From Aldrovandia affinis (taxonomy: Eukaryota; Chordata; Actinopteri; Notacanthiformes; Halosauridae): DNA of 64,000 bases. Numbering within the stretch: the first letter of the stretch is position 1; the number at the start of each line of letters is the position of its first letter. The position numbers and the translations under genes were made by a program. The notes under the pieces were generated by a model. It had not been told where the DNA came from and ran no database searches. It saw only the letters and a list, made by a program, of their open reading frames with translations. Positions 22,939-55,500 of the stretch are shown piece after piece. The stretch is from assembly GCA_029706075.1 (NCBI GenBank), contig JAINUG010000109.1, forward strand, positions 2,927,501 through 2,991,500. The letters run 5' to 3'.

Positions 22939-23020
<82 letters not shown>

Positions 23021-26000
23021 GGTCTCAGGTCTCAGGTCTCAGGTCTCAGGTCTCAGGTCTCAGGTCTCAGGTCTCAGGTCTCAGGTTTCGGTCTCGGTCT
23101 CGGTCTCGCACTGAAGGCTGCATTTGTTCCAGCCGAGCACTGACTACACCTGATGCCACTGATAACTATAACTTATTGGTTTAAGAGGTGAGCTAATTGA
23201 TACCTGGTGGTTCAGTTGATTGGTTAGAGGAAGTACCAGCAGCCACTGCGGCCTGTAGGACAGAGAGTTGGCTATGTTGGGCGTAGAGCAAAGTTACTGA
23301 AATCACGGTCCTCATGGGCTGCTGCTGTTTTTGACCCTCCCTTTCCTGGGATTCAGGTGTGAAGACACTCTGGCCAATCAATTGCACTAATTGTTTAGTT
23401 ACCTACCTGAGAGAAAAGAAAACCAGAACCAAATTTGTATTCGTGGTCCAGATTTGAGTAACCCTGGTGTAGAGTTTCAATCATAGCCTGAAGTGAGGTG
23501 GTCACATTGTACTGGTGGACTGTACTTAGACATAGGTACATATGGTGCATATTCCTCTGTCTGAAACCCTTTGGATTGAATGGTCTAAAGCCACTAGCCA
23601 CAGCTGAAACCTTTTTCTTTTTTCCTTTTTGATTTATTAATAAAGTTCCATGGCAGGAGTTTCTCGATCCTGGGGGCCCACTGTGTGCTGGTTTTTGTTC
23701 CAACCAATCTTTAGATTAATTAAGGCTGTTGAAAACGTGTTTAGCCTCCATAATTTTGAGTTCTTAACACAATGCAGGTTAGGCTCATTACTATTTGCTA
23801 AAAGACCATTTGTCTTTTAACTCTGACTTTTGAACAAAATAGGTTAAAACAATTACCAATGTAACTACTTTCACAGTAAATGAAAGCAATAGTTGTCTGA
23901 GAGCTAATCTGACTAATTATGTCCTCAAATTAAAATAGAATATTAATTCTTTGCAACATGAATATCTGTTTCTGACATAATGTGGCATTAAGAGGGTAAA
24001 TCGTACCTCACTGGACATTAAACGTGTCTTTAATAATGAAACAATGAAACAATTACTTTCTTCCTTTCTACTTCAAGTGTAGCTGGATAATTCTTTATGT
24101 TTATTGCTACTGTTTCCTATTCTTTTTAGTTTGGTGAAGTAGCACCAGAGCACTCTATTGTTTTTAATCAAAAACAATTAACAGCTTGTTATGATTTCAG
24201 AAATTACAATTATGGTTGAACTAAAACCAGCATACACAGTGGGCCCCCAGGACTGAGGTTGAAAGTCTCTGGTCTATGGCATACTTTTTAGAGAGATGAA
24301 TACAGTTGCTGGTGGTCACTTCACCCGCCCCCCCCCAATATACTGTGTACATAAGTTCATAATCAGTTTATAAAAGCAATAGAAATCCAAGACCTACTTA
24401 AATTTGAGTTATTGCATTTTATAAATCAAAGAGCTGATAAAAAAATATATCTGATGTTTAATTTCCTCAATCTAACACTGCCTCCCTGTAAGGTTTTAAT
24501 CCTTGCTTCTTCTTTTTTCTCCTTTTTTGCTTCTTAATATTGATGTAGTGATATCACGCTGAGGTGAGCCTATGTCTTTTACTATGTCTGTTTTATTTGC
24601 TGTAAAAACAGGCTGTGTGTGGAGACTAGTGGGACTTAGCTTCCCTGCTGGAACTTTGACCCCATTTACAAAATCCAGCTGTGCAGCTAGCTCCATGCTA
24701 GCTGGGATATAGCCAAACAGACTACTCTGGATAGTAGTAGTATTAGTAGTAGTGAGTAGGAATAGTTGTAACATTTGTAGTTGATTGATGGTACCTATAC
24801 TGTTATAACTACACATGTCCCATAGACAATTTTACATACACATAGATAATACATGTGTCCGTGGTTCTCCAAAAATGTGGCTACCCTGTCAGCATTACAA
24901 CACTATTTTGTGTACACTGACTAGTATGCACAATCAGGAAAATCAAACCTGGTGCCAAATAAACCTCCATGCAGAGGCTGTGAATTGTGGTGGATAAAGT
25001 ATATGTGTTTTTGTTTTTTTCCTGAAATGTACTTACGGGGAACAAACTGTAAAACTTCAAAACTACATGGGTTCATCCCATGTTTTAACCCCTTGAGGAG
25101 TGAGTTTTCTGAAAGTTCTAGTTCTAATTCCCAGTGTTCTATTCTCAAAATGTAAAGTTCTTTGTGGATGCCATTAGGAGCTCTTTATTATGTCACTAAT
25201 TAGAACCAACTAGAATGTTATTGTGTGTTCTAGAATAAACATTAAACATCACAGTGTGACTGTACTCCACAAAGGGTAAAAAAATTAAGGAAAAAAGAAA
25301 CAGACATTAAAGTTATGGAAAAACAAGTGGTGGATAAAATCTGCAAGGTGACAAACTGCAAAAGTGCAAGGTCCCATGGGAGGCAGTGCAGTGCAGCATG
25401 GGACTGTGAACCACAACCCCCCCTTTACCCACCTGCTCTGGCCTGTTGCTGTGCTAATGCTAGCCCTTATGGAAAACAAATCACATGAATTCAGCACGTG
25501 CTTCACACATATATTACACATTTCCATGCAACATATTGTCACATGTTTGTTACTTGTATTCACATATTATCATATACAGTATATACATGGGGGGTTTGGG
25601 GACATTGCACATGTGAAATTCATGCAATTTTTTTGTGCCGGGAGCAGCGCTGGTGGTTCTGCGGGTGGTGTGACAGGAATGTCACAGATTCTATAGTCTA
25701 ACCAGATGGTCAGCTCCTTCCTTCCGCCCCCTCCAGTTCTTAACGACAGGAGGTTCTGGATGGCAACAGGAGTTTCCGGTGCTCTTTTACAGTACAGAAT
25801 GTCCATTTCCACAGTACTGTACTGTGACAGTAACCCCCCTTCCTGAATTTTCACAAAATTCAACCGATCGGATTGTTTCAGTTTCAGCGGTAGGAAGAGT
25901 GTTCAGTATTTAAGCATACAGAGCAGAGTATCCAGTGGGGTCTATAGGTTTGTGATGTGATGTGAATGTGGAGGTGGGTCGCAGTGATTTCATAAGGAAG

Positions 26001-29000: not shown

Positions 29001-32000
29001 ATCTCCACAGACCAGAAAGCATCAACAGCATTGCACCCTGAGTGACACCCTGAGGCAAAGCACCAACAGTTGAGCAAATTAAGACCCAAACGGCTGTGAT
29101 TGGCTGCCACTTCACAATACAAAGATATTGTCATTCACAGGTAATAGGTCAATGCACATTGACTGGGGGCAAAGGTTTCATTTTGAACATCAATGGGGCT
29201 TTGAAGGTAGGGAGGTTTGAGAAGGTGTGGTGTGGGAATATCCTCACCCCCATTGATGCATGACCACAGGAGTAGATAATTTTTTTTTAAAGACATTATT
29301 CAAATTTGGGCCCTCTTTTAATTTGATCAGATGCTGGGCTCTTCAGATGAAATGTGAAACAGTGGAAAACCGTCTGTACGTGATGGATTACTGTCTGAGA
29401 CAAACGGCGGACTCCCTGAATCTGCCGAGGAGCGATAAAAGACCAGACACTAAATTTCAGCCCGAGCCGCTGGGATTTGCAATTTTAATAGTAAACTTTG
29501 AACTTTCCATTCCTTCTTTTTCAGAGGCTACAAACTGTTGATTTGTAAGCCCAGGGGATTCAGAAAATCAAGAGAGGAAAGGCAGAGCTGAGAGCTGTTT
29601 CTGCAATATGTTGTTTTTCATCTTAAAAAGGAATATTCAAGCCTCTCTCTCTCGGCACCCTCTCTTTCTGCTGCTAGCAAAGATGAGTTTTAAAGTTATG
29701 TTTTAAAAGTCCTCACGCTCGACTGAACTAGACTGAGAGAATGATTTGTTGATCCTCATAAATATTCTTGACACAGCTCTCCAAAACAGATTAATTTAAT
29801 TCCAGGTTGTGTTTTGAACAGTGCATAGTGGTAAAACTCCTTGGGGAGAACAGAAACAACTCACCGGTGTTCATTTTAAACGTATATGATATTACATTAT
29901 TTTTCTTTTTTAATTACAGCTAATGACTTGTTGAAGTCTGCTTGCCTCGGTGCTTCACATGAACGTGTAATCCGATGAGAAGAATGCACTTACTGAATTT
30001 GAGACGCAGTATGCTGGGGGCTTGAGATTGAAGCACAACATTTACACGCAGCAACACAAATGTCCTAATAACATGGGAGACAGAAGAGGGGTCATGATTG
30101 AACTCACAAAGACAAAGAGAAATACAAATGGCTCTGTTGCCATGGACAATTATTATTAGTATGTAAATCTTACGTGTGTGTGTGTGTGTGTAGGTGGGGT
30201 GGTTACTATTTGGCTGGCTAGTAGGAAGAGGTTCTTGGGGTCTGTGGCTTTCAGGTCATTATCTAGAGCTCATCAAACCATTCAGTGACCACTTGGATGT
30301 GGGCATTTGTCATCCTGGAAGAGACTGCCCCCATTAAGATAGAAATGCTTCACCGTAGGATGAAGGTGATCACTCAGAATGTCTTTGTTTGTATTGGCAT
30401 TTACATTGCCCTCTAAGGGTTTGAGTGGACCTAAACCATACAAGGAAAATACCATAACCGACACCCCACAGAACTCATTTACTGTTCCCTTTATTTTACC
30501 TTTATTTTATCTGAAGTTACCTGTATGTTCTCCTAAATGTGTTCTACATATGTTCTCATCCTGCATCCTACATCTGTGATCACCCGGACCTGCCGATTCT
30601 CCCTCCACAACATCCAGAGGATCCGACCGTTCCTCACCCAAGAGGCCACACAACTCCTGGTCCAGGCCCTGGTGATCTCGCATCTGGACTACTGCAATTC
30701 CTTGCTGGCAGGCCTACCGGCCTGTGCCATCAAGCCATTGCAACTAGTCCAGAATGCTGCCGCACGTCTGGTGTTCAATCAACCAAAGTTCACCCACGTC
30801 ACCCCTTTACTCTCCTCTCTGCACTGGCTCCCCGTCACAGCACGCATCAGATTCAAATCACTGGTGCTTGCTTTTCAAGCGGCTAGAGGAACTGCTCCCC
30901 CTTACCTCCAGACACTCATCACACCCTACACCCCAGCCAGACCCCTCTGCTCAGCCTCCTCTGGCAAACTGACTGTCCCATGTCCTGACCCCTCGGTGGT
31001 GGAATGACCTTCCGCAATCAGTCAGGACCGCGGAATCACTTGCAGTCTTCCGACTAAAAACCCACCCTTTCAGACTCCACTACCACTGAATTCTGTACAT
31101 CTACCCAATTGTCATCACCACTGCCTACTTGTCTTGTATATGTATCCCTGCCTACTCATTTAATTTTTTATTTTTAATTAACATTTTCCTTCCCAGTGTT
31201 ACAGGTATGGTATGCAGCTGCCTACAACGATGTCTATCGCTCTATTACTGCACTGATCTCTTGCGCAAACTATGATTGTTTCCATGTTTTAATGCACATC
31301 TTGTAAGTTGCTCTGGATAAGAGCATCTGCTAAATGCTTAAAATGTCAATGTTAAATGTTCTCCTACGTGTTTTGTTGTTCTACATGTCGTTGCTCCAGC
31401 CCTAATGTTGTTTTGCATGCTCTCGCTCCCGCAGCATAAAGAACGTCACGCCCAAGGTGGGCGTGGCCGAGACCCACGACGCCATCCGCCGTGCCTTTGA
31501 CGTGTGGCAGAATGTCACCCCACTGCGCTTCGAGGCAGTCCCCTACAGTGCCCTGGAGAATGGCAAAAGGGACGTGGACATCACCATCATATTCGCCTCA
31601 GGTTTCCATGGCGACAGCTCGCCCTTCGATGGGGAGGGTGGCTTCCTTGCACATGCCTACTTCCCGGGCCCGGGAATTGGCGGGGACACGCATTTCGATT
31701 CGGATGAGCCCTGGACCCTGGGGAACCCCAACCACGATGGTGAGCGATTGAGCGACCACAATCCACCCCTGAGTCTGAGCCGGGAGACATGAGAAACGGC
31801 CAATAGGCATCATTTTAAAATAACACCTAAACTCTCCCCTGCCACTACATTTCTATATTTAAGAATACTCCTGCACACTGTGTCTCTTGCAAAATTCACC
31901 AAACTTTATTATAACAATAATCTAAAACAAAATAGCTAGCGTTTCAGTCGGTACTGTTCTGGGACTTGGATCTGTTCTTAAAGACAACTCTTAAAGGGAC

Positions 32001-41000: not shown

Positions 41001-43733
41001 TCAATTTACATATTAAATATGACCCCCCCCCCCCCAGTTTCCTTATTTCCCCCCAAATCATACTCCCACCCACGACTCGTTCGCTTCGCGTTTCCATAGA
41101 TACGCTCTCCATTATCCCGCCATGCTTCTGTGGTGATGTCATCATGGTGTAACCTTACTGTAAAGATGTGCGAGAAGCCATGCTGAATTTTGAGATCATT
41201 TTGCATGTTATTAACCTTAACCGGGAATGTTCTATAAAATGTGTCATACCACGGCTGTCAAAGAGAATAGTGTAACAAAAGCAACTCAAAGCCATTAAAT
41301 ACCATACTTGAGTTGGTCAATATGACCATGGGATCACTGCAATTAATTCAGTTCATTTCAGAAATGATGTCATAGGTTAAAGGTACCTCTCACCTCTGAT
41401 GATGGATTAGGTGATAATAGAGCTCTGGCGTTCGATTGGTCCAGCTGGTTATTCTGCTTGGTTTAACCCGATTCCTTGGGCTAGTTCGGTCAAGTCGGGG
41501 TGGGGTGGTATTGGATTTATGGAGTGGACCAGAATGTAGGTGGGATAGTATAGTTCTGGAATGGATGGAAAGAGAAAATTGCTGATTGCACTGCTCCCTG
41601 TCCATTTCCTGTAGGTCTGTCCTCCTGGGACTCAATAAAGAAAGAACTGACATATGGAGCGCTTCATTGCCATACATATAATGTTGTTTTTTCTTGCTTC
41701 CAATCCTGGGTCAGTGGGTCACCAGCTATAAAACCCTGGCCTTAATTATGAGAGAGCCGACAAGCGCTTAAGAGCAGTGTTTCAATATGACCTCCAGGAG
41801 GTCCTCCGTGGGCCTGAGACTGTGTGGGCTCTGACTAACGTGGAGTTACCAACACAGATACCATAATCTAGACACAGTATATGTAATCTGTATATGTCTC
41901 CAAGTCAACACAGCTGTGGTGGACCGGTTACTCCTCTGTGTGAATGTGTATGTGTGTGTTCTGCACTTTGGCCAGGGTAACCACCTTAGCTTCTCTAGTT
42001 TTCTAGTTCCTACCATGTATTAATGCACATCTTGTAAGTCGCTCTGGATAAGAGCGTCTGCTAAATGCTTAAAATGTCAATGTAAAATGTAGTCTAGTTG
42101 TGATCCCTGGTGGTTGCCATGGCACAGGTCTCACCTGTCTCGCTCTGTGTCTGTCTCTGCAGGAAACGACCTCTTCCTGGTAGCGGTGCATGAGCTGGGC
42201 CATGCCCTGGGCCTGGAACATTCCAATGACCCGACCGCCATCATGGCACCCTTCTACCAGTACATGGATACCGAGAACTTCAAGCTGCCTTACGACGACC
42301 TGCAGGGGATTCAGAAAATCTATGGTACGGAATTATGTGGGCAGGGCCATGTGACGGCCTGTGCGGTGCTGTGGGCGGAGTTGTGGATGGGACAGTGGGC
42401 GGAGCCTGTGAGCAGGATAGTAGAGCCATGGATGGAATCTTTTGCTGGAGCTGTGGGCAGAGCGGTGGGTGGGGCAGTGGGAGAAGCCTTCTAAGGCAGA
42501 TCATTCAGGAGAGATGTCGAGCGGGTGCGCATAGGGGTCATTCACAGTGAAACAGCAACTGGCGGTGGCAGGGGCAGGGCTTTGGTTCCAGTAATGGCGT
42601 TGAGTTCCTTGAAGTTTGTTTCCACCTCCAGAGGCCATTACAAGCACATTCACACATCCATTCACAGCTGAATCACTGCTTTATCCAGCTCTCCTGCCTC
42701 TGCCAGTGAGAGCATTCAGGCTGCTAACGCTCTCCCTGTGCTGTTTCCTGTCTTCCCCAATAGGACCATCCCTGAAAAGGATTATTCCATCCACACAGAA
42801 TGTACAGTAAGAGTGTTCGCTTGGTCATGTAGTGTTGGACTTTGACTCTGTGTGTGCGTGTGTGTTTGTGCGTGTGCTTGGGATGTCCAACAAAGCATGT
42901 TCCCAGGGGTTCATAGTCCTCGATACCTGAAAAAGAACTCCCACTAGACACACATTAGCTGATAAAGGGCACACTAAAACGCTGATCTCTTTCTCTTCTA
43001 TCTGAGAGCAAGCTCGCATGCTCTTTTTATACAGCTGTGTTTCCAAACAGCGCCGTCCATAAGAGGCAAAAACTAAAAGTATTACAAAAAATGAAAAATT
43101 AATAAAAAGAGATTCTCATGAGCCCGAGGCCCCTGGGGGACGCCACTCGCTGCCATGACACGGCTGGTGTAACACGCAAACTCCTCCACCTCCTCCACCT
43201 CTCCAAGAGCAGGTCAGTGACCTATGCAAAAGGGGTGCAATCTCCATGGAGAGAGAGGGAGGGAGGTTAGATGGGTAGGGGGGTAGAGAGGGAGGGTGAG
43301 AAAGGGACAGAGTGAGAGAGAAAGGGATGGGGATGGAGAGAGAGGGGAAGATAGAAGGATAGGGAGGGAAAGAGAGGAGTAGGGAGATGTTGACAGAGAG
43401 AGGCAGTGATTGAGTGGGAGAGATAAACAGAGAAGAGTGGGAAAGAGATAGAAAGAGTGGTAGGAAAGAGAGATAGAAAGGATGAGCTGCAGGGGGGTGG
43501 GGCACTCAGGGGAAGAAGGGTTCTGTGTTCTGGGAAGGGGGTTGTTGGTCTGTGATCCTGAGAATAGGAGCCAGAGCCGTAAGCCAGCTCTGATTGGCCT
43601 CTCTTGTCTCAGCGAGGACCCCAAGATCAAACACCGCCATGTGGTGTTACCGCTGTACTGTACTGCGCAGATATTTTATGCAAGCGAGTGTGTCTGTCAT
43701 TTTAATAGCAGTAAGATTAAGAAGTTGCTGCAT

Positions 43734-44347: not shown

Positions 44348-47300
44348 GGACTGTATCAAAGTGAAACACTATGCATCTGCCCGTTTCAGGAGATTTCATT
44401 CAGCCAGTGAACACGACTCCCTGTCGTGGCTGATCCTCAGGTTTTATATCAGAGGTTTCACCCAAGGGGATTATTTCTTAATCCATTAGTTCCTTCATTC
44501 ATTCATTCATCACACTCATTGTCTGAACCACAGCGGGGGTGTCACTGTTGTGATGAACGCATCATGATGATTGGCTGTGTCAAACCCGTCTCTGATTGGT
44601 GGTAATCCCTTTTGATTGATAGGCTGGGTTTTAGGTATCAACAGTAACTACAGAGTCTTAGCAACCAGAGCTGAGCGTAAGAATATAATTAATTTTATTA
44701 CGAAGAGGAATTTGTCTGAATATGTTTTTTTTACCGCAGTTATAACTGACTTTCCAGGTGTAATGCGATTTGGATTATTTGATTTTACAGTTTGGTGGAA
44801 TTTTGAGTAGACCAGTTTCTTTTTGAGATGGGGAGATAATTTGAGAATGTGCCTCTCATACAGCTGTAGGTGAATGTGTAAATCATTGTGCCAATTTTGC
44901 ACCCAATTAACAGCTTTCTATACACAGTTAATGACTTTTCTAAGTGAATATAATTTTGTCTCCATAATTACGTTTCTTCTGAGATAGCATGTGCATTACA
45001 AAAAAAAAAAAGAATATAAAAACTGATTTTCCCTGCAGCTGTCTTTGGGGCAAAGGGAGTCTTTGAAAACCCTGATGGTAAATTTTAAAGAGATTTTTTT
45101 TTCCTACCACGCTTATCTGACTGTGACCAGACAGTATGATTTGTAATAACATCCCACAGTTATACAGTAGTGCTTCCATTCTCATAACCTCTACAATAAC
45201 TTGACTCTTTATTTGCTCAGTAATGGGGGATTTTTATTCATCAGTTTATTGGTTTATTATTTCTCAGTGTATATTATTATTGTTATATTTTTTTTTGTGG
45301 AAACAAAGCACAGTCCCCTGCAGAAATATGGATGTCTGTGACTCTTTGTTCAGCTCCATGGGGGTTAGATGCTTCAGATTGGCGTTATATACTCAATGAC
45401 ACTAGGTGATTTAAAATGGCAATCACTGTTGTGCAAAAAGAGTGCATTGCTCTGCTCCTCTTTCCTAACAGCGATTGTTTTTTAAAATCAGGACTTGGCC
45501 TAGGGTCATTGGGATGGGTATAGTAGTATAATATGCCATTTAACTTGAATGTCTATGTTTTATGTGGTTTTATGTTTTTATGTATTGTCTGTGTTGATTT
45601 TATGTTTTTATGCTGCAAAGCAAATTGCACTCTGGGACAATAAAGATTTATTCTACGCTATGGTTTGTGGAAATTAGGCTCAGAGAGTCGCAGTGATGGT
45701 GAAATGTCCCCATGATTACCGACTGTATGACAATCTGTGTGTTTCCTTTGTCCAGGGAAAAAGTTCAGCTCATCCCAACTTAGAACTATTGCATTCAGAA
45801 CAATAAAACAGAAAAACTGTAGTTTTTTTATTTTTATTCACCTGAAGCTTCGTTTCATTTTAATTTCACAGGTTTCATCATGATCCTATTCAAAGGCTAA
45901 AAAGCTACATGATCTACAGCAACAGAGCTACAGAGCTGACCTTAGTGTACGAGCCTGACAAGTGAGGCTACCTATTGATTTGTGTATTCATGTCTTTTTT
46001 TTTTCTTTTTCGTTGTTGTTGTCGTTTCAGGTCCTCCAGACAAGGCCACCCAGCCGACCCGGCCCTTGCCCACAGCCCCGCCCCCGCTCGCCCCCCCAGG
46101 ACCCCCGAAAGCATGACCGGCAGACCCGCCCACCACGACTCCCTGCGGGGGACAAGCCCTCCCACCCCAACGCCAAGCCCAACATCTGTGATGGCGGTTT
46201 CAACACGCTGGCCATCCTGCGCAGGGAGATGTTCGTCTTCAAGGTATGCAGCTAATGGAAGGCCAGCGGAGGGAGGAGGGGAGAGGTGACACCTATATAA
46301 GGGAAGCATTGTGTTTTCCAGATGCATTCTGGGTATTTTATTTTTCTTCAACAAAATATCAGTCTCAAGCCCTTGACAATGAAGCCTATCACCCAAAGAT
46401 ACATCACTCACTTTGGGCCCAACGTTAAGTCCTTGTTTTTCTGTTTTTTTGAGTTCAGCCAGAAGAACAACAGGCACAGGTGGAAATTAGATAAAGGTAA
46501 ATTCTACATTGCATTTTACATTTTACATTTTAGGCATTTATCAGACGCTCTTATCCAGAGCGACTTACAAAAAGTGCATTTATACATGGTAAAATTAATC
46601 ATAGTTTAGTGTAAGAGATCAGTGTAGTAACACTGCAATAGACATCATTGTTGGCAGCTGCACATTGTACCTGTAACACAGAGAAAGAAAAGTTTGCATT
46701 TTTTTTGTTTCTTTGTTATTACATTATTAAACATGTAAAGAGTGGTGATGGCAGTTCATTAATGTATAGAATCAGTGGTAGTGGAGTCTGAAGAGGTGGG
46801 TTTTTAGTCTCTTGCCAAAGATGGCCAGTGATTATGCGGTCCTGACCGAGTGAGGAAGATCATTCCACCACCAAGGGGTCAGGACAGAGAAGAGGCGAGA
46901 CCACGAGGAATGGCTGCCGGGTGCCTAAAGGGATGTCAGTCAGTTTGCCAGAGGAGGCAGAACGGATGGGTCTAGCTGGAGAATTGATATGGGGAAGTAT
47001 TTTTTTTTACAGAGAGAGTTGTCAACATGTGGAACAGCTTGGCAGGTCATGTAGTGGAGGCAGAGACACTTGAGGTATTCAGGTCCATGCTTGATGCTGG
47101 GCCGGAAGAGGGGGTGGGGCATAAACTCTCCCTCTTCATCCCTGGAGATGGCGTCTCCATAGAAATGCCTATTTCATCGCTCCCACCAGTACCCACCCCC
47201 CACCTCCCCCCCTGGCAACCACAGCCAAGCCCAGAGACAGAAAGGAAAGGAAACAGGACATTTTAAAAGCCCACACTGATCACACCCTGGGGGTTCAGTG

Positions 47301-49524
47301 TGGATGGATGGTTGTTTCAGAGTTTCCCTTTCGGCCCGGCGACCGGTCGCAGGGTCTCGTGGGCGCATGATCACACAGCGGGTGATGATTTACGTGCAGC
47401 ATCTTGGGAGAGGTTATCTTTGCTTTTATTTATTTGGAAAACCTCCCACAGCACCTCCTCCACAGCCTCGTCTCGGGTTGTGCCATTTTGGTGGCTGGCT
47501 TGTCCTATGCCCCTTTCCGTCCGCAGTGGGAAAGCTTGGCCGCCCAGCTCGTTTAGATCACGTACGCACCGTCCCTCCTGACGGACACGCCTTTTCTCCG
47601 GCGTACAAGGCCTTGTCTCTGGGTGAATCTGTCTGTAATTATAACATTACATTGTTTACATTATTATACAGGAAAGTTTATTTTGTGATTTATCACAATG
47701 CAAATGCTCTTATAACATATGTAATGTCTCTTACAGCATACCTTGTACCTCACCATATTTTAGGGCATATGGGCAGGGATCCCCAACTCTGGTCCTGGAG
47801 AGCCACAGGGTGTGCTGGTTCTTATTGTTACTTAGAACTTAATTGATCAATTAAATCAGGTGATTACAGCTGATTACCTCACCTGAAATCTTCTGATTCT
47901 CCGCCCTTTGTAGATAAATTGCCTATTTCATGTGTGGAACTGTCCGCTTCTGAACCAAGTTTCTCACTGTGAGAGAGAGCACTAACACCAACCGGGAACA
48001 GATTCACGTAGGGGTCGATTAAGGACGAGAATGGAGTAAATGAGGTGGGATATTTATTTAATTCAAACTGTTTTTTTTCTTATTTCTTCTGTAGCTGATC
48101 CAGTCATTTAGCCTGACTCGTTTTAGGAGATTTACTTCAGAGTACAACACTGTGTTCAGGGATCAAAGCAGAGCAGAGACGGGTGATTGCGGTCTGTCAC
48201 TGTTGTGCTCTGTGACTTTCAGAGGAGAGGGTTTTTTTTCTTTGTTAAGCAGCCAGGACCATCATGAGGCCTCTGCCTGTCTCCATATGAAGCCAAGCTC
48301 TTTCTCTTGCTCTCTCTCCATCTTTCTCTCTCGCTCTTTCCCTCTATCTCTCTCTCTCTCCCTCCCTTTCTCTCTCTCTCTCCTCCCTCACTCCCCCTCT
48401 CTGAGTGTGAATGTTTGCCGCTGTGCTCTGTGTGTTAGTAGGATGGGAGAACAGACTACTGGGCCTCCTGCTGAAGCCCTGTTCTATTTCGAGCCTATCT
48501 CTGCCCCTGGCAGGCAATGCGGGCGGCCCTCCAGGCACTGCCCTGTCACACACCTGCCACTCTGATACCCATGAAGCCAGTGAGGCGGGTGAAGCCATCC
48601 TGTACCACTCCACACCGGCTGAGCCCTCTCTTTCCTGCTGCTTAAAGCTCTTTCTTTTTCCTCTTTTGCCTCTACTGGTAGACATCCTATTGCCTTAAAT
48701 GTCTTCTTGCTCCGATTTTTTCTGCCGGCGCTTACAGCTGCATGCTCCCTCTCATCAGCTTAACTGATAAACTCTCACTCACCTTATAGTTCTTTCACTC
48801 ACTGAGCACTGATTCACTTCTGCGTTTTATTCTTCATCTGTCCCTTCATTGCCATCACCCGTGAAGAGACTGTCAACACCTTAGTTTAGTGTGTGTGTGT
48901 GTGCGTGCGTGCATGCATGGTTGTGCATCTGTGTGCTGACCAGAGTAGTAATAAATTAACTGTGATATCACTGCTTTTAAACCATGCCGTCATGGTAACA
49001 CCACTCGAAACGGGTGACAGGTGGGGGGACAGGTATCACTCCTTCTCAGTCAGGTGAGAGCTCAAGAGAGTAAAAAAAAAAAAAAAAGGAGAAATGGTCG
49101 GACAGTCGACTTCTGCAAACACCCAGCTGAATACTCTTTCGTGTCATGCCTTCCAGTCATTCCTCATCGGACAGCAACTTTAACCAATTGCTTCTCAGCA
49201 CCCCTCTGCTGCAGCCTATCAGGGCACAGTGCCATCTCTGCTGAGTTGGCAGTCTGGCTTCATTCAGATGGCAGCGCTTCACTCACGTGATCCTGCCCCT
49301 GAGGGCATGTGGATAGCGGGAATGCAGGTGAACTCTGAAATGCCAGACTGAGAGCTGTGAGTGTGGGTGCAGTTACCTCTGAGTTACCAGTCACCAGACA
49401 ACACATCTCACAATTAAGGGACACACCCAACCAATACTTAACAAGGTGAAAGTAGACCAACCCCGTGGGCAGAGGGAAGGGGGGGCGAGGGCATGTAGCC
49501 TGATCTCCCCAGGGGAGCCTTGAC

Positions 49525-49559
<35 letters not shown>

Positions 49560-52500
49560 TTTGTGTCTATGTGCCTCGTCAAACAAGCACAGATTGCTTA
49601 AAAAGCATCTCCACTGTGCGGCAGTTAAAAATTATCTTTAGTCAATCTTACCATTAGCCTTTCACTTGTCAGACCCTAAATCTACTGTGAGTTGACCTTG
49701 GGAAGTTTTTCCGAGAATAAAAAAAGCTTTTTCATAATTGTATTAAATAAATGTATTTTATATACTGTATATATAATATATATATATATATATTATGGTG
49801 TATATTGGGTGTCTCTTTGAGTTGGGACACTCACAGACCTTTGCAGAGGGTATAGGCCAGGGGTGTCCAATCTTATCCGAGAAGGGCCGGTGTGGGTGCA
49901 GGCTTTTGTTCTAGCCCTGCACTAAAACACCTGATTCAACTAATTTACCAATCATGGTCTACAAATCAAGACCTTGATTAGTTTAATCAGTTGTTTAGTG
50001 CTGGGCTAGAACAAAAGCCTGCACCCACACTGGCCCTTCTCGGATAAGATTGGATACCCCTGGTATAGGCAGTTAAATAACCCAGAGGAAGCAGTAATAT
50101 AAACAAAGCAATGGTTTTATTAAACGTAATCTTGACAAACACAAAAGGTTGGGGTATTCAAAACACAGACAGTCCACAATCCTTATCTTTGTTGTTGTCT
50201 GTATTCCGTAGCCCAAATCCAATCCAGTTCCTCAAATAGTCCAAAGTTGGTACAGAAGCAGGGTCCTCAAACAATCCACTCCCTTAGCACTTACTCTCAG
50301 TGAGACACACAAGAGTCCTTTAAATAGGCCTCTAAATGGCCTTCAGCTGTCCGTAGTCCCAATCGCTTGACTTGTTTCAGGTGCAGGACTGCAGGCTGCT
50401 GGGAAATGTAGTCTTTTCCTCTCCAATAGCTCCCAATAATTAAAGAGGCAGGCAGCCATTTCCTCATCCTGCCCCTTGGGATGCCACAATATACACTGCT
50501 CAAAGAAATGAAGGGAACACTTAAATCACACATCGCGGATCTCGATGAACTAAATATTCAACTGGAAAATCTTTATTGATTACGTTGTGTACTTCGTCGA
50601 GAACAAAATGACGTAAGAACGGTCAATGGAAACCAAAATCATTACCCCATTGAGGGCTGGATTCAAAATCACACCGAAAATCTAAGTGAAAAATTTAGAT
50701 CACAGACTGATCCAACCTGTGTGAATTTAATCACGACAACTCATAATGTGTCTCAGTAGTGTGTATGGCCCCCATGTGCCTGTATGCACTCCCGACAATG
50801 TCTGGGCATGCTCCTGATGAGACAGTGGATGGTGTCCTGGGGGATCTCCTCCCAGACCTGGATCAGGGCATCACTGAGCTCCTGGACAGTCTATGGCACT
50901 TAGTGGCGGCGGATGCACCGATACATAACGTCCCAGAGGTGCTCAATTGGATTCAGGTCTGGGGAACGTGCCAATCAATGGCATCAATGCCTTCATCATC
51001 CAGGAACTGCCTACACACTCTGGCCACATGAGGCCGGGCATTGTCCTGCACCCAGGGCCCACTGCACCAGCGTAAGGTCTGACAATGGGTCTGCGGATTT
51101 CATCCCGGTACCTAACAGCAGTCAGGGTACCGTTGACTAGCACGTGGAGGTTTGTGCGGCCCTCCAAGGATATGCCTCCCCAGACCATCACTGACCCACC
51201 GTCTCCAGACTCTTTCACGTCTGTCACATGTGCTCAGTGTGAACCTGCTCTCATCTGTGAAGAGAACGGCGCCAATGGCGAACCTGCCAATTCTGGTGTT
51301 CTCTGGCAAATGCCAATCGAGCTGCACGGTGCTGGGCTGTGAGCACAGGTCCCACTACAGGACGTCGGGCCCTCATGCCACCCTCACGGAGTCTGTTTCT
51401 GACAGTTTGGTCAGAAACATGCACACGAGTAGCCCGCTGGAGGTCATTTTGTAGGGCTCTGGCAGTGCTCCTCCTGTTCCTCCTCGCACAAAGGAGCAGA
51501 TACCAGTCCTGCCGCTGTGTTGTTGCCCTTCTACGGCCCTGTCCAGCTCTCCTTGTGTAATGACCCGTCTCCCGGTATCTCCTCCACGCTCTTGAGACTG
51601 TGCTGGGAGACACAGCAAACCTTCTTGCGACAGCACGTATGGATGTGCCATCCTGGAGGAGCTGGACTACCTGTGCAACCTGAATGGGCTGCAGGTACTG
51701 TCTCATGTTACCAGTAGTGACAAGGGCACTAGCAAAATGCTAAACTAGAGAAAAATCAGTCAGGAAGGATAAGGAGAGAGAAATGGTCTGTGGCCACCAC
51801 CTGCAAAACCATTTACTTTTTGGTGGTTGTCTTGCTCTTGCCTCTCCTGTCCACCTGTTGTCACTTTCATTTGCACCAAAGCAGGTGAAATTGATTCACA
51901 ATCGTTTCTGCTTCCTAACTGGACAGATCGATATCCCATAAGTTTAATTGACTTGGTGTTATACTGTGATGATTAAGTGTTCCCTTCATTTCTTTGAGCA
52001 GTGTATATATATATATATATATATAATTTAAATTTTTTATTTTATATATATTACTTAATAATGAACTCACTTGGAAAGCATTTAACCAGACCCTCCTATT
52101 CATTTGTGAAATGTTAAGTGCTGTAAGTCCCCATGCAAATAAGCAATTAGCACAGGGACGATAAGGTAGGAGACAAGAGGAAGAGCAGAAACACTCTTGC
52201 TCCCAGAGCCTCTCAGCTCTGCGCAAACAGAAGCCATGTCTGGATCAGAGCCTCTTCATGTTCGTATGTTTCCACTGCAAATAAAAGAAGCAGAGCTAGT
52301 TCCTGGCTTTTGGAAAAGCTTACTTGCATTTTTTGGTTTTCCTCTTGGGTTATGCTGTGGGAACCATGTGTGCGCTCTTCTCCTCCACTGTAGGAATCCT
52401 TATAAATTGTAGTGATCTTAAATAACACATCCGGTGCTGTGGGCAACAGTGTAGTATAATAGTTAGGGAACTGGGCTTGTAATTCCGAGATTACAGGTTC

Positions 52501-55500
52501 AATTCCCAGGTGGGGCACTGCCGTTGTACCATTGGGCAACGTACTTAACCTGTATTTCTTCAGTAAATATCCAGCTGTATAGATAGATTGTATGTTAAAG
52601 GCCTCTACATGCTTCTGCGTAACTTGTGCGACATCTTTGCGGTTCGCGCAATGCAACATGTCGCAAGCACTCTGCAATTTATACTTCTGCGCAACCTATG
52701 TGACATGGTGTCCTTACACTTCTGTACACTAGTAGGCGTCAATGTATTGAACAAGGTCGGTAAAGTTTTCATGGAAGCAGGGAAACTCCTGTACCTTCAA
52801 ACTTCATCAGCCAATTTTTCCTGAAGCTGGTTCATTTTATATCGTGTCAAACAAATGATGCTAGCTATCTATATCGTTAGCTACTGTTAGCCGCTTTATT
52901 TGGGCGTGATGCCAGGTTGCTAGCTAGATAGATATCGATAGTTTTGCTTAGCTAACATTAACATAGATATATACAGGTATGGTATGCAGCTGCCAACAAT
53001 GATGTCTATTGCTGTATTACTGCACTGATCTCTTGCGCGAACTATGGTTGTTCTTACCATGTATTCATGCACATCTGTTAAGTTGCTCTGGATAAGAGCG
53101 TCTACTAAATGCTTAAAATGTAAAATGTTAAAAAATTATGTACTAGCTCGATGAACTATGACTAGGACAGCTCCTTCTCCATTCACTAACCAACCAATCA
53201 ATGCTGTGCAACATTTATGTGACATGTTGCACTGTGGTCGCGAGTTAAGATTTTTATGCTAGGTAAACAACATCCTCTGCAACATCAATGCAACATCTGC
53301 GACGTGTTGCAGAGGATGTCGCGTTGCAGTTGCTCGAGCATGTACAGGTCTTAAGAAGTGCTGACTGTGTAAGTCACTGTGGATGAGAGTGTTTGCTAAA
53401 TGCCTAAAATGTAATGTAACATCCACCAGCTGACGCAGAGGCAGTCTTCCATTCATAATGTAATAAAGGTAGACTATTAGGGATTTCACCATTTCCCTTA
53501 CTGTACAGCACCGGTCTGTGCTTGTTGTTTGAGTGTAATTAACAGGGATTCGGGTCTAGCAATGAGCAATGTTTGTTAACAGTGCTGGGGTCTTAGGGTG
53601 AGCAACATGAGCAACACTAAATGGTGGTCGGGTCCATCTGTGGGAGATTGATTAGAAATGGGAGGCTTGGGGTCGAGCAACATCTATTATCAGGGATGGG
53701 GTCTGCCGGTGATGATTTGTATTTAAACAAGATGGGAAATTGGGGTGAGCAATGTGCGTAAACAGGGATGGGGAGCAAGTTAGCAGAGAGAACAATGTTT
53801 ATGACGAGAGATAGAGTCTGCTTTTAAAAGGGGATAAGCTCTGATGGTATTTTACACCATGGCCAAGTGGTGTTGTCTATTATGTTTGTTGGCTTGGCTT
53901 GTTTTTGGTATTGGGTTTTGGTTATTTTCTTATTTTAATGTAGGAAAAGCTTTGGGCTGTAACTGAGTCCTGTTTTAACAGAGAGGGGGTCTAATGATGA
54001 GGGCTTTCTCTCTCTGTCTCTCCTCAGGACCAGTGTATCTGGAGGGGTCTAGTGATGAGCACTCTCTCTCTCTCCTCAGGACCAGTGTATCTGGAGGGGT
54101 CTAGTGATGAGCGCTCTCTCTCTCTCCTCAGGACCAGTGTATCTGGAGTGGGGTCTCAGGACCAGTGTATCTGAGGGCTTTCTTTCTCTCTCTGTCTCTC
54201 CTCAGGACCAGTGTATCTGGGGGGTCTAGTGATGAGCGCTCTCTCTCTCTCCTCAGGACCAGTGGTTCTGGAGGGGTCTAGTGATGAGCTCTCTCTCTCT
54301 CTCCTCAGGACCAATGGTTCTGGAGGGTTCGGGACAATGCTGTGATGCCAGGGTACCCCATGCAGATCGCCTACTTCTGGAGGGGTCTCCCGCCCAAGAT
54401 TGACGCCGTGTATGAGAACAGCGAGGGGAAGTTTGTGTTCTTCAAAGGTGAGAGAGGGTTCCTTACAGCCCTCAACCTTTTATTGATGTGTTTTATTTAT
54501 GTATTTATATATGTGTAGACTCTGACTACACAGCTGTATCCTTCGTATGAGGTCACACAAAGTGGGGATGGACTCAGTTTGTTTCTTTAGTGTCTCCAAA
54601 AACAAAAGTCCTTCCACCTTTTTCCTCATTTCTTTGTTTTGTTTGTTTTGTTTTTGCATTGTTGTCTTACTTTTGGTCTGCTGTGCTGTTATTTCCAGGC
54701 TGCAGTCATGCTATATAAACTGTCTCAGTTGTGCTCCAGAGTGGTTTGGCATACAATGATTTCAAAAAAAGGAAAAGAGAAAAAGGAATAATAAAGAAAT
54801 AAAGAAGTTGTGGTGGTAGCCTTTTTTGAGAAATAATTTAAACAAGACGGTGCATTTTCGCATCACAATATTTCATATAATGTCAAAATATTTTCAGTGT
54901 GTGCCAACATTTTCTTTTACCCCCGCTGTTGATAATTATTTCTTAGAAGAAAAAAAAGACAGTTGATGCGGAGAGTGACTTGCTAACCTTTTTCCCGGGA
55001 CACCCTGCGGATGTTACTGCTGTTGCCATAGGGATCAGATATCAGGGAGTGGGGGCGATAAGCCACAGCCAGAAACATATCCCGCCTGCTCCCCCTTATC
55101 ACTACTAGTGTTAGAATGATTGCTTTGCTGGCCTGGTTGCCAGGTTCTTAGAGAGAAATACCTCCCCCTTTGGGTTTATTCTCTCACAGATAGCGATTGG
55201 CTACGTGCTCTTAATGTGAAGATCGCATAGGAGCCTTCCTATGTGCCCGTTTTCTTGAAGAGTGCCGCTCGGGTCACCTGATTAAAAGCTTCCCTCTAAA
55301 CCCTGTCCAATGAAAGTAACTTAGATATTCTGATAACCGTGCTGGCCTTTGCCTTCTTCTTGAGTGTGCTAAGAGGCACATGTGTGTGAGCACGCCAGGG
55401 TTGGGGTTGAAATTCAATTCACGAATTGGAAAAAATGTAATGTTAATTAATTCATGAATTTTCCTGAATTGACTGACTTGAAATTAAACCGACCCCAACC

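Follow-up and report, generated by a model that had tools for sequence, protein, structure and literature searches.

Immediately upstream of exon 7 of a probable metalloproteinase gene in Aldrovandia affinis, the splice acceptor of that exon is found repeated six times in tandem. The question raised by such a locus is whether an array of near-identical acceptors alters the output of the gene, or whether it is a repeat that the gene tolerates. The stretch analysed, referred to here as the window, is 64,000 nt long and lies on contig C102 of a 1.22-Gb genome.

The gene at the locus

On the + strand of the window, matrixin exons are found at 31436 and 42165, and the exons at 54309, 57106 and 60910 have hemopexin matches. 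The Pfam families matched are PF00413, PF00045 and, at the C-terminal end, PF11857, which is presumably a marker of membrane-type MMPs; the nearest solved chain for the exon 7 product is MMP14. With its matrixin catalytic exons, hemopexin exons and membrane-type C-terminal part, the gene appears to encode a membrane-type MMP, probably an MMP16-like one. Sequence likeness, a close paralogue in the genome and the UnaL2 LINE ends given below, rather than a database entry, underlie both this name and the placing of the gene in a probable ray-finned fish. Exons are numbered as in the original prediction, exon 1 not having been located.

The reading frame is open in exons 3 to 5, in exons 7 to 10 and in the visible part of exon 2. 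However, exon 6 as assembled is 2 nt shorter than the equivalent exon of a paralogue, in which the frame is intact, and hits a TGA at 46114-46116, 8.2 kb before exon 7. Either an error of sequencing in a C-rich tract or a real lesion, with a damaged allele, could account for this, and with the assembled frame broken in this way the sequence alone gives no measure of how much full-length protease is made.

The only Rfam matches in the window at gathering thresholds were three UnaL2-type LINE 3' ends (RF00436) in the region of the gene, at 31291-31343, 42022-42074 and 46528-46582, and ARAGORN detected no tRNA in the window. Downstream of the propeptide exon, at 22939-23107, an array of TCTCAAC units (11.7 copies, 100%) adjoins one of TCTCAGG units (13.6 copies, 96%), the two units differing by two bases.

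Structure of the array

Seven acceptor-like junctions are present at exon 7, the last of which is the true one (Table 1), with spacings of 52, 52, 28, 46, 51 and 52 bp from each to the next. The six upstream copies each consist of the end of intron 6 followed by about 19 bases of exon 7. The original prediction had termed them tandem decoy copies of the exon 7 acceptor, which is a fair description of the array, and the six copy starts, the true start and the six distances to the true site that it gave (281, 229, 177, 149, 103 and 52 bp) were confirmed in the sequence.

Table 1. Coordinates of the array and of the surrounding exons and intron, in window positions.
Feature	Position	Strand	Remarks
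Exon 6, linker exon	46031..46243	+	213 nt; ends ..MFVFK then gt, phase 0
Intron 6	46244..54308	+	array at 3' end
Left edge of array	53983..53988	+	carries GAGGG
CTAAT, consensus branch-site candidate	53991..53995	+	A at 53994, 34 nt before 54028
Copy 1	53985..54046	+	branch site, pyrimidine tract and CAG; exon-like start 54028; read-through stop 54172
Copy 2	54047..54098	+	exon-like start 54080; read-through stop 54227
Copy 3	54099..54150	+	exon-like start 54132, in frame with exon 7; stop 54279
Copy 4	54151..54178	+	28-bp remnant lacking branch site and pyrimidine tract; exon-like start 54160; stop 54172
Copy 5	54179..54224	+	copy-1-type tract, lacking the CTARTGATG part; exon-like start 54206; stop 54227
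Copy 6	54225..54275	+	exon-like start 54257; frame shifted; stop 54401
Last unit	54276..54327	+	true acceptor (AG 54307-54308) with exon 7 bases 1-19
Exon 7, hemopexin repeat	54309..54447	+	139 nt; exon-like start 54309 is the true start; peptide ends FVFFK; donor AAAG then GTGAGA

The array greatly exceeds chance expectation: the 13-mer CTCAGGACCARTG, with at most one mismatch allowed, matches seven times in the 64-kb window, always inside the array, as against a mean of 0.22 and a largest count of 2 in 100 shuffles. Two periods were detected by TRF, one of 52 bp (5.7 copies) and one of 177 bp (1.8 copies, 94% matches), the block of the second pairing copies 1 to 3 with copies 5 and 6 and the last unit. 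The exon-like parts of copies 1 to 5 have three differences from exon 7 in common (GACCAGTGTATCTGG versus GACCAATGGTTCTGG), and copies 3 to 5 differ further at the 3' edge of this part. Copy 6 has only one difference there, and is the nearest of the copies to both exon 7 and the paralogue; in the one haplotype available, TGTATC is common to copies 1 to 5, and TGGTTC is found in copy 6 and exon 7. The GAGGG at the left edge of the array (from 53983) recurs within exon 7, at 54323-54327. The array folds no better than its shuffles, 91 of 100 of which are at least as stable (z +1.18); nothing therefore points to a selected RNA structure, and this candidate role was rejected.

Splice signals and reading frames

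All six copies have an AG, and five have a pyrimidine tract of acceptor grade. On a rough matrix with approximate frequencies, these five score 13.4-14.1, the true site 15.4 and copy 4 (54160) 1.7, with six other acceptors of the same gene, exon 9 being left out, scoring 4.1-11.5. The true acceptor also has the longest uninterrupted pyrimidine tract, of 18 Y.

The distribution of putative branch sites is less even. The consensus CTAAT is kept before copy 1 only, with CTAGT in its place in copies 2, 3 and 6 and in the last unit; 50 nt upstream of copy 1 there is also a consensus-like TTAAC. In copies 2, 3 and 6, as in the true unit, the best candidate is a GTGAT 25 nt before the exon, its A at 54284 in the case of the true acceptor. 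With weights that are again rough approximations, CTAAT before copy 1 scores 5.0 and GTGAT at the true site 2.2. For the true exon 7 acceptor, the AG exclusion zone measures 20 nt. Under the scanning rule for acceptor choice, as set out in PMC1431707, a zone of this length implies that the true branch point should sit in the last unit, so that the true acceptor should have to rely on the weak GTGAT candidate.

Every one of the six copy acceptors is followed by a premature stop (Table 1). The original prediction held that five of the six copies look usable as acceptors, and our scores agree. It had also described stops within eight codons of the copies at 54160 and 54206, an in-frame TAG before exon 7 for the copy at 54132, and a shift of frame into a TGA inside exon 7 for the copy at 54257, all of which proved correct on re-reading of the frames. 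The two copies for which it gave no stop, at 54028 and 54080, also end early, at 54172 and 54227 respectively.

Comparison with the paralogue and with other exons

When the 481 bp at 53980-54460 were used as a genome query, one other place was matched: exon 7 of the paralogue, on contig C968, with 86% identity over the matched part. Hence no family of such arrays was detected beyond the locus itself and the plain paralogue, in a search limited to the best-scoring candidates, with simple repeats and very common words passed over. Exon 7 of the paralogue encodes the same 46 residues with a single acceptor and has no array of junction copies, showing that one acceptor suffices. The same intron of the paralogue has a 40-bp minisatellite of 4.4 copies (L003, 7600-7777), which stops just short of the acceptor and is free of exon bases.

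The two genes were compared over 218 codons (48 from the 3' part of exon 6, 46 from exon 7, 48 from exon 8, 39 from exon 9 and the first 37 of exon 10), giving a dN of 0.029 and a dS of 0.70, from which it follows that the pair has long been constrained. This would fit long-run use of the true exon 7 acceptor, although such constraint is averaged over a long time and is hardly informative on the period since the array arose.

The edges of 93 exon matches at 80 loci were surveyed for junction copies: 30 hemopexin matches (of 32 found), among which are three exons of the gene in the window and two belonging to the paralogue, together with 63 trypsin matches (of 159 found), the latter not being a random sample. 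Junction copies were found at one of the 93, which is exon 7 of the window, and at none of the other 92. Self-comparison flagged 14 rows, in three of which the coding part lies within a local repeat; two of these, L050 and L062, were rejected by eye as junction copies, the third being the window's own exon 7 (L027). The remaining 11 have repeats nearby which on inspection, mostly of one repeat pair each, comprised only simple or intronic repeats and no junction copy. Those near the hemopexin exons L007, L023, L024 and L026 were likewise simple or intronic, without exon bases. Arrays with a period of at least 10 cover 4.9% of the 260,020 bases around the sampled exons (77 loci). Given the small sample and unannotated exon edges, these figures do no more than hint that this genome has few junction copies.

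Two further repeats were observed beside trypsin-family exons. Most of one intron is taken up by degenerate, arrayed units of the CTGTAACTCTGGTGTGTA type (L084, 446-1050), and a 23-bp minisatellite, with about 90-95% identity between copies, stops around 20 bases before an exon (L064, 1329-1484).

Relation to known systems

Arrays of this kind are already known, if rarely reported, under the name of mirages, which are minisatellites spanning intron-exon boundaries in genes of amphioxus, with units of 10-160 bp (PMC3087553). The genes with mirages named in PMC3087553 and PMC3902484 are Adh3, troponin C, the globins BflGb6 and BflGb9, and PGBD5, the repeats of which also overlap splice sites (PMC3902484). 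In BflGb6 (PMC3087553), the repeated unit joins the 3' end of an intron to the 5' part of an exon and is present six times in one haplotype and three times in another; RT-PCR suggests that regular splicing is undisturbed, and many, not all, mirage copies keep their splice signals. The Adh and troponin C mirages are reported to give no aberrant mRNAs (PMC3902484). Homogenisation within the cluster that spares its edges, and length differences between haplotypes or tissues, are further traits of mirages.

The array upstream of exon 7 resembles these in being a tandem repeat across an intron-exon boundary, in the retention of splice signals by most of its copies (the AG in six of six, the tract in five of six), and in the 52-bp length of its unit, which falls within the range given in PMC3087553. 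It differs in belonging to a probable fish gene, in having about 19 exon bases in a 52-bp unit, in the common GAGGG that hints at its origin, and in the branch-site consensus being found before one copy only. No acceptor-side mirage in a vertebrate was recognised among the literature matches listed (the best 20 of 45 and the best 10 of 2,615 in two listings), a coverage outside which most subscription papers fall.

A donor-side counterpart is intron 7 of human F7, in which several 37-bp repeats begin with the donor itself, the most upstream copy being the only one in normal use (PMC6627357). Both systems have near-identical splice-site copies at an exon edge, variable in number in F7, with the exon-proximal site being the one used there; the copies are of the acceptor in the present array and of the donor in F7. 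NAGNAG tandem acceptors likewise provide one exon with more than one usable AG, but were ruled out as a description of this locus because whole splice-site units are repeated, with AGs 28-52 nt apart rather than three. A strong branch-site candidate 315 nt from the true acceptor recalls exons with distant branch points; however, the AGs of the six copies and others lie in between, and an exclusion zone of only 20 nt rules out this class as defined in PMC1431707. Recursive splice sites were ruled out too, since the copies read CAG then GACC, with no donor GT.

Origin and effect of the array

We consider it probable that the array is a mirage-type minisatellite which the gene tolerates, having no selected role, with the last acceptor mostly used and minor leakage to those upstream. 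The array would have begun as a tandem duplication across the junction, taking in the end of intron 6 plus 19 bases of exon 7, probably at the GAGGG present both at the left edge and in exon 7, which would explain this first step. Growth of the array may then have involved further duplications, including one of the block of about 177 bp, as well as small internal deletions and homogenisation between copies. The spliceosome would mostly pick the last acceptor, as this has the longest pyrimidine tract, adjoins the real exon and its donor, so favouring it through exon definition, and has a branch-site candidate in its own unit; a minor fraction of transcripts would be spliced to upstream copies, gain premature stops and be degraded.

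The anatomy of the repeat, its excess over chance, the common GAGGG, the single acceptor of the paralogue and the unexceptional folding of the array all favour this best reading, as do, on the basis of predicted signals, the superior score of the true acceptor and the stops after all the upstream copies. Precedent and long-term constraint would point the same way, in that amphioxus mirages reportedly leave regular mRNA and F7 reportedly uses its exon-proximal donor. The original prediction had offered two alternatives, a lowering or regulation of protease output by the array, or silence because the last acceptor wins; the second appears the better supported.

Two observations run counter to this reading. 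The lone consensus CTAAT before copy 1, with only a weak GTGAT at the true site, would speak against dominance of the last acceptor, as by the first-AG rule a strong CTAAT would lead to 54028 being picked. Against harmlessness is the survey, in which arrays cover 4.9% of the sequence near sampled exons, yet none of the 92 other exon matches has junction copies, as if these were usually purged by selection. Both would fit a working brake, in which CTAAT captures the spliceosome before copy 1 and many transcripts are spliced to 54028 or other copies, five of them near-equal acceptors, each copy leading to a stop and decay, with array length setting the output. We regard this as unlikely, in view of the higher score of the true acceptor, the approximations on which the acceptor and branch-site weights rest, and the regular mRNA or exon-proximal site use reported for the amphioxus and F7 precedents.

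It is rather less probable that the gene copy on this haplotype was already damaged in exon 6, and that the array spread under relaxed selection whilst the paralogue remained functional. The TGA in the assembled exon, set against the intact paralogue frame, would suggest as much, but the other visible exons are open, those downstream are constrained, and faulty sequencing or polishing of the C-rich tract may account for the 2-nt difference. An assembly artefact, either a joining of two haplotypes or a wrong number of repeats, seems improbable: the 177-bp block repeat could be a leftover of such a join, but the genome search, which scored the best candidates, revealed no second allele, and the sampled contigs of 0.5-14 Mb suggest long reads able to span 324 bp, even if the copy number could still be off. 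Least credible is that the CUCUCU tracts, six of them long and within about 300 nt, are a platform for a pyrimidine-tract repressor of the PTBP1 type governing tissue-dependent inclusion of exon 7, the skipping of whose 139 nt, not a multiple of three, would shift the frame, as other TC arrays in the window (43737, 44269 and 48298) show such tracts not to be special to the array, and they are missing from the intron end of the paralogue.

Implications

Exon 7 may have been cut off from its original branch site, leaving self-sufficient decoys to compete for splicing and making copy number a heritable dial on the amount of full-length mRNA that survives decay. We hold this to be a distinctly unlikely outcome; were it true, an easily changing copy number would tune the mRNA of the full-length protease. 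Whatever its effect, the locus provides one natural intron with seven acceptors, six of them nearly identical, and with branch-site candidates of which one is strong and several are weak: the classical duplicated-3'-splice-site experiment, here set up by nature, in which first-AG scanning, exon proximity and exon definition can be separated in living tissue. Short RNA reads from such a locus call for caution, since alignment programs may report spurious junctions between repeat copies (PMC10632439). The array also bears on the models by which such repeats seed new introns (PMC3087553), and adds to the mirages described in amphioxus an acceptor-side case in a probable vertebrate gene.
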